Below, piece after piece: positions 3,719 through 35,619 of a stretch of DNA of 35,619 nucleotides. The translations under genes were made by a program, and so were the position numbers. The stretch's first letter is position 1, and every line of letters starts with the position of its first letter. The DNA comes from Acidobacterium sp. (GTDB lineage: Bacteria > Acidobacteriota > Terriglobia > Terriglobales > Acidobacteriaceae): NCBI GenBank assembly GCA_003167515.1, contig PMSS01000409.1, positions 1 to 35,619 of the forward strand, in the 5' to 3' direction. The notes under the pieces are model-generated. The model was not told the DNA's origin and searched no databases. It saw nothing but the letters and a program-made list of their open reading frames with translations.

Positions 3719-3885
3719 ATGAACTCCGACGCCGCACCAGCCCCGCGCCGCCTAACCGACAAGGTCTACTCCCCGCGCATGAACCAGTACGGAGACCAGA
3801 CCGCCGAACAAAAGGTCCCTGACAAACGCTACGAGAACGCCCACCTCGTCTCCAGCTTCCTCATCCGAGACATCACCGTCAACCA
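3719..3885 (+). pseudogene. Truncated duplicate of the 3' end of the exported protein gene at 2963-3406
   Basis: DKVYSPRMNQYGDQTAEQKVPDKRYENAHLVSSFLIRDIT versus DKIYPLRMKHYGDQTAEQKVLDKRYENAHLVSSYLVRDIT. 3758-3877 aligns ungapped to 3278-3397 (offset 480, about 14 mismatches in 120 nt by eye). It lacks the N-terminus, signal peptide and original stop. Confidence 0.85.
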
Positions 3886-4317
3886 TCCGCTGGAGAACCA
3901 GCTGGCTGGTGCCTTCTTTCGCCTTTCGTCAAATATCGGTAAAAGGCGACCGTGCAGCTCCTGGTTAATTCCGTCACGACCCGTAGCATGGATTTTCGCA
4001 GCATTGTTATCCAACTGAAGCTCAAACCATTGTCCGATGATTGCAAAGCGATGGGTAACCCCTCCAATCTCACGCAGGTCGTCAACCGAATCGCACTCAT
4101 CATCCCCAACGATGAATCGGAACGAGGCCCAAGCAGGATAGGCTTCCGCGCCCATCGGTCCGGGCCGCGAGAGATTTTCAGGCACAGAGGCTTTCAATAT
4201 CTCAACGATCCGCTCGACATCGTCAGGATAAAGCGTCGCCGACGGCAACCTATTGTCCGTTTTGTAGCGGGGACGTATCGTCAAGACGTTTCCGCCTCGA
4301 ATACTACACCGGTTCAA
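3829..4317 (-). CDS. Truncated ORF of unknown function, tightly coupled to the upstream NTase-TIM-barrel gene; its C-terminus reads antisense through the duplicated fragment
   Basis: LTIRPRYKTDNRLPSATLYPDDVERIVEILKASVPENL...RRKKAPASWFSSGW, then LTVMSRMRKLETRWAFS is the antisense of the duplicated fragment. The TTG start at 4315-4317 lies directly after the upstream stop. Confidence 0.5.
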   Translation of the reverse strand: MNRCSIRGGNVLTIRPRYKTDNRLPSATLYPDDVERIVEILKASVPENLSRPGPMGAEAYPAWASFRFIVGDDECDSVDDLREIGGVTHRFAIIGQWFELQLDNNAAKIHATGRDGINQELHGRLLPIFDERRKKAPASWFSSGWLTVMSRMRKLETRWAFS

Positions 4318-4318
4318 A

Positions 4319-6160
4319 CTATGCGGCGATAGTGTTTTCTACAAGCCACGGGAATGCCCTGCGCCCCTTGGCAATTTCTCGCTCAACACGCTCAGGCGAC
4401 GCATCGTCGTCCAACCGTGATTCAAAGATCATCGCAGCACCCCTCGGAATGAGCGAACTAATCATCTGATAAGCCGCAATAGCTGCCTCGCTCATCGGCA
4501 CATGCTTGCTCGCTGTGTTAATTTCGCTCAAATGCACCTGCACCAGGCGGTCTGCAAAACGTTCCAGCATAAGGAACGATTCCACCATGCTCGTGTCGAG
4601 CTGCCGCGCATGAGCCACATCAAGACAGAATCGCGCTTGCGGCAGGCGCTCAAAAAAACGAGCAAGTTCCGCGGCGGTTCGGCCCGTTCTCTTGCGTGAG
4701 TCCATATTTTCAATGCAGACAACATCTCCCAGATTGCTCCACAGGTCGAAATCATGAATGCTGTCGGGATGAACGATAACTGGCACTGGCCGGAAGGTTA
4801 TCCCCGCAGCTAGCTGATCCACAACAGCGCGCTCTTCCACGCGGGAAAAAACGCTCGGCGCATGAATGGAAACATAGGAATACTTCCTCAGATCGAGGTA
4901 CGGCAGTTCGTCGAGCAAAGGGTTCAGTTCAGGAAAGCGCAGAGCCGAAAGCTCGATCGCATTAGTGTCCGTCGCCTGCAAGACATTCAATGCCCGATGA
5001 AAGTCGGACAGCGCTATCGCCCCTGTTGAAAACCCGAATTGAGCCATCAGAATACTCCGTACTTGATCGTTAGATCGGAGAGCAGGCCGCTCCCGGGCCG
5101 AAAGGAATAGTTCTGTGATCGCTTCCTGGAACCGTTGACCTATCGCTCGTGCCTGCAAATAGAGCCCATCGTTCGCCATCTCTTCAGGGCGGAGCTCCTC
5201 CAGGCGCTTACGGTTGCTTGACTTGGACAACAACCCGAGAAATCCATCGTAAGATTCTAAGAAGCTCTTGCTTGCATCGTTGATCAGATCCAAATCAAGC
5301 AGGCTCTTCGAAATCAAATCGAGGGGAGGCATGTTGGCAATCGTCTCCAGGAACAAAACGAGACGCAAACCTCGCTCCTCCGGTGCCAGGTTAGCATCCC
5401 AGGCGTTGGCCACGATCGGATCGTCCCGCCAAATTCGAAGAGAAAAGCAAGTTACCAAGCCAGCCAAATAAAGGAGCTTTCTCGAGAATCTCAACTTAAC
5501 GTTCCGGAGGGCAAATCCAACATTTTCCCGTTCACGTTTCTTCGTTTGGAAATCCACGGCCATCGTGCGCCAAAACCGAGCTACATCGTTAAGCAGAAAC
5601 CGGGGGACATGGTCTGAATGCTTACCGCTCAGGAAACTCCCATCTTCAACGATGTAACGCGAAAGGATATTGCGAATCACGCGGCTGCGAACCGCCGCTC
5701 CATAGAGGGCCTCAGACTCTAGCAGCAAAAGTAGCCGCCGCGTCGTATTCGCGTTCGTGTCATCGCCTCCACCGATTTGGTGGATCAGATCGTGACTAAA
5801 GGCTAGATTTCCGAAAGGGCCCGTTTTACTCGGCTCCTTCTGGTCGGCGTCAACCAAATGTCTCAACCCGTGGACCAGATCGATATCCTGACTGGCCGCC
5901 AGTCCATCCACCAGAAGTGTCCAGTCGACATCGCTCTTCCCTGAACCCGTAAATTCGTTTCTCGCCAAGGACCCAAACACCACGAATGACCTGTCACTGT
6001 CGTCCCCGCCTGTGAGAAGTTCAGAAGTTTCAATCTGTCCGCGCAGTATCCGCTTTGTAAGGATGGATTTCTCCCAAGCCGCCTCGATTCCGTCGAGTCG
6101 CAGCCCCAAGCGCTGAGCCAGAACGAAGACGGGACTATCGTAGGCAGGCTGCTGGCTCAT
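4319..6160 (-). CDS. Nucleotidyltransferase domain fused to a xylose-isomerase-like TIM-barrel (sugar phosphate isomerase/epimerase superfamily)
   Basis: N-terminal NTase signature FVVFGSLARNEFTGSGKSDVDWTLLVDG. C-terminal TIM-barrel signatures VVCIENMD, ARFCLDVAHA, LVQVHLSEI and AMIFESRL (E/D-x2-H/H/E ligand pattern). Likely start is MSQQPAYDSP near 6160; the track ORF extends to 6292. Confidence 0.75.
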   Translation of the reverse strand: MSQQPAYDSPVFVLAQRLGLRLDGIEAAWEKSILTKRILRGQIETSELLTGGDDSDRSFVVFGSLARNEFTGSGKSDVDWTLLVDGLAASQDIDLVHGLRHLVDADQKEPSKTGPFGNLAFSHDLIHQIGGGDDTNANTTRRLLLLLESEALYGAAVRSRVIRNILSRYIVEDGSFLSGKHSDHVPRFLLNDVARFWRTMAVDFQTKKRERENVGFALRNVKLRFSRKLLYLAGLVTCFSLRIWRDDPIVANAWDANLAPEERGLRLVLFLETIANMPPLDLISKSLLDLDLINDASKSFLESYDGFLGLLSKSSNRKRLEELRPEEMANDGLYLQARAIGQRFQEAITELFLSARERPALRSNDQVRSILMAQFGFSTGAIALSDFHRALNVLQATDTNAIELSALRFPELNPLLDELPYLDLRKYSYVSIHAPSVFSRVEERAVVDQLAAGITFRPVPVIVHPDSIHDFDLWSNLGDVVCIENMDSRKRTGRTAAELARFFERLPQARFCLDVAHARQLDTSMVESFLMLERFADRLVQVHLSEINTASKHVPMSEAAIAAYQMISSLIPRGAAMIFESRLDDDASPERVEREIAKGRRAFPWLVENTIAA

Positions 6161-6337
6161 TGAATCGAGATCGGGAAAAACAATCGTACATGTATTAACT
6201 CTGGAAAATATGTCCCAACCGAATTTGCCCGAGATCGCTGCCTCAACCTCGTAACGGACCCTTGCTTGATTGCCCTTACGCTCGTAACCCATACCCTCCG
6301 TCTTCCCAACGCTCCATTTCCGCCCCCCGGCGACACA

Positions 6338-6918
6338 TCAACCCCGCAGCAACCGCAACGCCCAGTCAGCGGCCCCAAATCCCCCGCAAAGCTGGCCACC
6401 ATCGCCGGCAGAAAAGTCCGCGGGCTGACCCGCCGAAGCTGCAGCGGCTGGTCAAACGCAGCGCCAATCAGTCCCGCAAACGACAGTTGCGTGCGCCCGT
6501 TCCCCTCCCGAAAGGGATGAATCGCGTTCAGCTCCGCCAGGAACCCCGCCAGCCGAGTGACAAATTCCTCCGGCGTCACATCGCGAAACCGAGTTCCGCC
6601 CTCAATCCCGCCAAAAAGCGCCTCCATCTGCGCCGGAATGTTCTCCGGGTAGCAGAACACCGTCTCGCCCTTCGCGATCCGCACCGTTCGATACTGTCCC
6701 GCCCACGCGTAAACATCACCGAACAGGTGCCGATGGACGGCGCAATAATGCGCTGGATCGAAATTCCCCTCCGGCAGCCGCTCCCACGAGCGCAGCCGGG
6801 AAATCTCAACCTCAAAGCTCTCCAGAGCCTTGGCGTCTCGAATATCAAGCTTGTTGCGGAGAACAGAAGTGCCCGGATATACGTACGGATCGTCGAAGGC
6901 CCCGTAGCCTCCAGCCAT
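6338..6918 (-). CDS. Fic domain protein (Fic/DOC family), with an apparent 3'-end frameshift
   Basis: HPFREGNGRTQ Fic motif and FGDVYAWAGQYRTVRIAKGETVFCYPENI upstream. Track ORF (6157-6921) runs on past the conserved end (TGRCGCCGVDVSPGGG...). One extra base in the GGGG at TTGGGGCC would restore ...GDLGAADWALRLLRG* with TGA at 6338-6340. Confidence 0.85.
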
Positions 6919-7118
6919 CAACGCCCTCGAGCTGACTTATAGGCGGCAATCGTCGCAGCGCGGCGCTTCGCGGGGCTCATCGACCGCGCCCGCTTCAGCC
7001 TCTTCTCGCCCTCAGCGCTCAGCTTCAGCCCTTCCACAGCCGTGATGGCCGCGAAATTCTCATCGCCCAGCACATAGCGCACCGCGGTCTTCCTCGCGCT
7101 CTTCGACGACTTCGCCAT
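6918..7118 (-). CDS. Putative VbhA/FicA-like antitoxin of the adjacent Fic protein
   Basis: 66-aa ORF immediately upstream of Fic, stop overlapping the Fic ATG (TGATG). Contains FAAITAVEGLKLSAEGEKRLKRARSMSPAKRRAATIAAYK, resembling the EGL... region of VbhA-type antitoxins. Confidence 0.7.
   Translation of the reverse strand: MAKSSKSARKTAVRYVLGDENFAAITAVEGLKLSAEGEKRLKRARSMSPAKRRAATIAAYKSARGR

Positions 7119-35384: not shown

Positions 35385-35619
<235 letters not shown>

Follow-up and report, generated by a model that had tools for sequence, protein, structure and literature searches.

The locus studied here raises the question of whether one polypeptide of a soil Acidobacterium, reading from a nucleotidyltransferase (NTase) into a sugar-isomerase-like barrel, is a genuine bifunctional enzyme and, if it is not, what the two parts do side by side. 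It lies in what we call the window, the whole 35,619-nt stretch of DNA analysed, which belongs to a metagenome-assembled genome (MAG) of 501 contigs. At the contig end the window carries the 5′ end of a 16S rRNA gene (35385-35619; Rfam RF00177).

The fused frame and the gene pair behind it

A single uninterrupted open reading frame (ORF) of 613 aa was found on the minus strand from an ATG at 6160 to 4319, in agreement with the first-pass annotation, which gave no strand, and all the motifs quoted there are present in it. The start at 6160 is backed by a same-genus homologue that aligns from residue 1. Searches of the protein itself against Pfam and NCBIfam gave sub-threshold matches only, and the PADLOC profiles PDC-M70A and PDC-M70B matched residues 9-357 (E 3e-116) and 372-605 (E 4e-94), respectively. 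The first-pass annotation knew of no named system with this architecture; this has to be corrected, since PADLOC already lists M70A/M70B as a candidate. Both profiles match nearly full length, adjacent and in the same order, and PDC-M70 is the right home for the locus, although PADLOC models A and B separately, stating no requirement for separate genes, and the window reads both in one frame by way of a one-base shift. The features of the locus are as follows.

5101..6160, minus strand: M70A (gene A), GlnE-like NTase with C-terminal helical domain, 353 aa up to the frame shift (PDC-M70A profile, alignment, AlphaFold2/Foldseek)
5921..5977, minus strand: NTase signature FGSLARNEFTGSGKSDVDW (G63 S64 R67 E69 ... 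D77xD79; residue identity across the superfamily)
5102..5698, minus strand: C-terminal helical bundle of M70A (LxND..R motif, N191 D192 R195; K222, R227; conservation, AlphaFold2 helices)
5098..5104, minus strand: one extra base (net) compared with the homologue from the same genus, shifting frame A into frame B (blastn alignment with G007/L002)
5047..5097, minus strand: ancestral C-terminus of gene A, intact and out of frame (..SDLTIKYGVF, then stop TGA; nucleotide alignment, homologue ending ..YGVF and stop)
5045..5049, minus strand: retained TGATG, in which the stop of gene A overlaps the start of gene B (sequence)
4319..5047, minus strand: M70B (gene B), Endo IV/xylose-isomerase-like TIM barrel, 242 aa, with its own ATG at 5047 (PDC-M70B profile, alignment, AlphaFold2/Foldseek)

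Related loci were drawn from relatives, from 299 genomes of the class and from a contig scan, of whose 168 loci the best 80 were kept and compared. In 79 of these 80, A and B are separate adjacent genes or A is present only as a broken remnant. A one-base overlap of the two genes (TGATG, TAATG and similar) occurs in 53 of the 80, and in the remaining loci the genes are mostly a few bases apart; in two of the 80, full A is not detectable and its tail is kept. Genes A and B are normally translationally coupled. The only clean natural fusion among the 80 is that of Acidobacteriaceae KBS 96 (L065 = L022), where two sense codons stand in place of the stop (junction ..YGLFYLMRPIGF..).

Against G007, a genome of the same genus with about 83% DNA identity, blastn placed a net additional base in the window at about 5098-5104, which merges frames A and B. 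Immediately 3′ of this site the original frame still encodes the conserved A tail SDLTIKYGVF and its stop, followed by TGATG and a normal B start. Given that tail and TGATG survive out of frame and that the neighbouring Fic gene is similarly shifted, the fusion is likely, judging from these alignments, to result from a sequencing or assembly error or else from a mutation that arose very recently. A selected natural fusion in the window was rejected on account of the retained tail and TGATG, and programmed frameshifting was set aside as its source in view of the ordinary stop-start coupling of the relatives. That the fused polypeptide is the functional form, selected as such, is scarcely credible: KBS 96 indicates that fusion is tolerated, but in the window the ~17 C-terminal residues of A are scrambled by the fusion while the intact tail persists out of frame with TGATG, and the one-base shift in the adjacent Fic gene is independent of it. 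Taken alone, the window sequence amounts to an ordinary copy, its frame possibly damaged, of a candidate that is listed but uncharacterised.

The Fic/Doc protein (PADLOC PDC-S04; 6300-6921, minus strand) lies directly upstream of M70A. Its one-base difference from G007 is located near ~6363, and its natural ..ALRLLRG end, followed by the stop, is out of frame. The order Fic-M70A-M70B also occurs in G007 (L037); Fic was rejected as a third component because the order is kept only there and because G011 has Fic without M70. Just downstream of M70B is a 162-aa ORF (3829-4317, minus strand) with no match in Pfam, NCBIfam or PADLOC, the start of which is 89% identical in G007, whose contig ends at that point.

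Folds and active sites of the two partners

The N-terminal part had been read in the first-pass annotation as an NTase followed by a helical region, and the C-terminal part as a xylose-isomerase/AP-endonuclease-2-like barrel with intact metal-ligand positions. Both assignments are backed by PADLOC, by Pfam matches of the homologues and by structure prediction, a check that the annotation had itself proposed: the AlphaFold models are confident and have the NTase and TIM-barrel folds. The catalytic acids and ligand positions are invariant in the alignments of both domains.

Pfam recognised NTP_transf_2 in 16 of 17 A homologues and DUF294 in 14 of 17. The AlphaFold2 model of A, built from the homologue alignment, has a mean pLDDT of 88, and its top Foldseek matches in the PDB are the GlnE adenylylation domain (3k7d, E 4.5e-3), DrrA (6yx5, E 1.2e-2) and the GlnE deadenylylation domain (E 2.7e-2), with probabilities of 0.99-1.00 but TM of only about 0.40-0.45 and marginal E values. 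The MNT antitoxin (E 0.55) and CD-NTases (E 2.6 and 5.7) scored lower. Sequence searches against solved structures returned nothing significant, including no sequence-level match of A to solved GlnE. M70A has a GS..DxD NTase core and a helical domain of the GlnE-type fold, the fold similarity being of marginal E. The GlnE adenylylation domain and DrrA are protein AMPylases. According to PMC3710099, GlnE, GlnD, DUF294 and DrrA each consist of an NTase with an inactive HEPN-like helical domain fused to it, and M70A shares the combination of NTase core and helical domain with the GlnE/DUF294/DrrA adenylyltransferases. Unlike GlnE, however, it has one NTase domain only and adjoins a TIM barrel, and no link to glutamine synthetase was seen.

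G63, S64, D77 and D79 are invariant in the M70A alignment; the G, S, R, E, D, D of the signature are identical in 50/50 members of the wider superfamily, as are N191, D192, R195 and R227 of the helical bundle, and the GSxxRxE...DxD core together with the LxND..R, SR and P positions is nearly invariant across the 50.

For B, AP_endonuc_2 was recognised by Pfam in 8 of 19 homologues, and the AlphaFold2 model from the homologue alignment has a mean pLDDT of 91. Foldseek matched it to UlaE, Endo IV, tagatose/allulose epimerases and relatives at E 1e-9 to 1e-6 (UlaE and Endo IV 1qum at about 1e-7 to 1e-9). M70B is a TIM barrel with His/Glu/Asp metal ligands (PF01261 fold): H62, H93, E113, D143, H146, H172, H182 and E209 are invariant in its alignment, and these H, H, E, D, H, H, H, E metal-site positions are shared with the Endo IV/xylose-isomerase-like barrels, CbiR included. 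The M70B profile also aligns, with a weak E, to M. tuberculosis Endo IV over the D143/H146/H172/H182/E209 region. Endo IV has a DxH motif whose Asp, as we take it, stands two positions before the last ligand His; nearly all M70B have Ser at this presumed position. Endonuclease IV proper was rejected on this ground, together with a Pfam barrel match in only part of the family and no NCBIfam Endo IV match. CbiR was likewise rejected, the match being weak and local (15 bits, E 0.013) and far below the NCBIfam equivalog score of 105.

Distant relatives and their phosphoesterase neighbours

What is new here is that distant NTases of the same superfamily stand beside other, unrelated phosphoesterases. 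These A homologues lack M70B and usually have another phosphoesterase as neighbour, in a raw tally without a random-gene baseline. A DEDDh exonuclease lies directly upstream of the NTase in six loci (L141, L142, L143, L144, L146, L149), overlapping or abutting it in L141, L143, L144, L146 and L149; in L141 and L143, the two examined, it matches a PADLOC 'Effector' exonuclease family, and the NTase is not CD-NTase-like. A 2H phosphoesterase is directly downstream in four loci, called from PF13563 above the cutoff in L150, a sub-threshold Pfam match in L151, similarity to L151 in L190 and the motif only in L145. An HD protein overlaps the NTase from upstream in four more (L186, L188, L189, L194), hosted by Alphaproteobacteria and a planctomycete; L186, L188 and L189 are close relatives of one another. 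Single cases are a downstream HIT protein (L193), an upstream HAD (L192) and an adjacent histidine phosphatase (L185). No phosphoesterase partner was evident beside the distant NTases L179, L184, L187 and L195. In a maximum-likelihood tree the TIM-paired NTases form one group and the DEDDh-paired NTases another, and the 2H and HD pairings need two changes each.

That one NTase superfamily occurs next to five or more unrelated phosphoesterase folds suggests a common chemistry, and this wider pairing pattern matters more than the window sequence. We tentatively suggest, as a possibility that falls somewhat short of probable, that PDC-M70 is a branch of a wider, undescribed class in which a GlnE-like 'writer' NTase is joined by interchangeable, structurally unrelated 'eraser' phosphodiesterases (Endo IV-like, DEDDh, 2H, HD, HIT). 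If each partner removes what its NTase adds, unvalidated defence candidates would be explained and new de-nucleotidylating enzymes gained. The PDC families were proposed as candidates in a 'guilt-by-embedding' study, and most are unvalidated (PMC12988326); PDC-M70 is such a listed, unvalidated candidate anti-phage pair. Among the papers searched, none names it or describes the pairing of NTase and phosphoesterase.

Two of the distant loci were also of interest for their setting. The 4.5-kb E. coli plasmid pISHS7_5 has just two annotated genes, one of them encoding the NTase of L184 (711-1706). In L185 (7944-9639; Rhizobium plasmid pRspBT04e), NTase and histidine phosphatase lie in a glycosyltransferase/aminotransferase/MFS cluster near rtcR, which suggests a non-defence, possibly biosynthetic setting.

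Proposed chemistry and competing readings

Our judgement that PDC-M70 is a module of writer NTase and eraser phosphodiesterase is evenly balanced, and we infer its chemistry, target, direction and any defence role alike. A would use an NTP as donor of an NMP, probably AMP, and attach it to a cellular target, a protein being likelier here than free nucleotides; B, in a metal-dependent reaction, would hydrolyse the resulting phosphodiester and take the nucleotidyl group off again. The module would then be reversible, B keeping A harmless or resetting it. The first-pass idea of a nucleotide- or sugar-linked modification or signal that is made and processed remains the best one in outline, but its placement in one protein does not hold, split gene pairs being the rule.

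Addition and removal of a nucleotidyl group is the simplest reading of a GlnE/DrrA-like transferase found beside varied phosphodiester hydrolases. It is supported by the invariant active-site residues of both domains and by the coupled A-B order with its one-base overlap, and the eraser role by the resemblance of B to Endo IV and epimerases together with the weak local match to the phosphodiesterase CbiR. RNase Z provides a precedent for a nuclease with protein deAMPylase activity (PMC12663964). There is room for A in 74 loci, and in 16 of these A is broken and B intact, the pattern to be anticipated were A costly and B not. In the about 22 loci identified by way of an intact A, B is always intact too, with no reverse case. 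The bias (Fisher one-sided p about 0.01, confounded by MAG errors, by selection of loci on B and by the greater length of A) hints that A is the costly partner. On the other side, A matches GlnE/DrrA in Foldseek with marginal E and TM values, sugar epimerases are just as near to B in fold, and four distant NTases have no evident phosphoesterase. Nucleic acids are the usual substrates of the DEDDh, 2H and Endo IV folds, which would suit RNA/DNA end processing or a nucleotide signal as well.

If B, or the DEDDh, 2H or HD partner, were instead a nuclease effector or toxin restrained through nucleotidylation by A, the pair would resemble MNT-HEPN, which is predicted to work in this way with the NTase gene first (PMC3710099). 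We regard this as unlikely. M70 shares with MNT-HEPN the order of an NTase gene and a smaller coupled partner, the MNT antitoxin is among the Foldseek matches of A, a constant NTase with variable nucleases resembles a regulator with swappable effectors, and the DEDDh partner matches a PADLOC 'Effector' family. However, M70A is larger and has its own helical domain, and the partner is an Endo IV-like TIM barrel rather than a HEPN RNase, so that membership was rejected. An intact B beside a broken A in 16 loci is unexpected if B is toxic without A, and HIT enzymes and epimerase-like barrels would be unusual toxins.

It is quite unlikely that the product of A is a modified nucleotide or a (cyclic) oligonucleotide which B degrades or responds to. 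The 2H, DEDDh, HD and HIT enzymes beside the relatives all act on nucleotides or oligonucleotides, and CBASS likewise couples an NTase to varied effectors, some distant relatives here even pairing with a PADLOC 'Effector' exonuclease. Yet A is nearer in fold to GlnE/DrrA than to CD-NTases, which led us to reject CBASS itself, B has no sensor domain, and clustering of the M70 neighbour genes found no receptor and no recurring third gene. RNA/DNA 3′-end repair or tailing, with the partner cleaning ends to which A adds nucleotides, is very unlikely: known end-processing enzymes (Endo IV 3′-diesterase, 2H, DEDDh trimming), the CCA-adding and tailing members of the NTase superfamily and the Rhizobium plasmid relative near rtcR fit it, but partners of the HD, HIT and histidine phosphatase types are a poor match for it, the helical domain is GlnE-like and not like that of tailing enzymes, and no conserved RNA-binding or ligase gene lies nearby.

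The defence-island context suggested in the first-pass annotation was examined with a coarse measure on a small sample. In it, 110 M70 neighbour proteins matched 41 PADLOC families and 110 control proteins, taken from related genomes at regions chosen arbitrarily, matched 37, with no visible excess for the neighbours; each of the 25 best families listed was represented by one protein. Homologues of B gave no match in phage or viral-contig collections and three on plasmids. One plasmid copy, in Mesorhizobium, does sit in an island that looks defence-like, with SIR2, ATP-binding, RecB-like and ThiF genes close by, and a Sinorhizobium copy lies near AbiEii.
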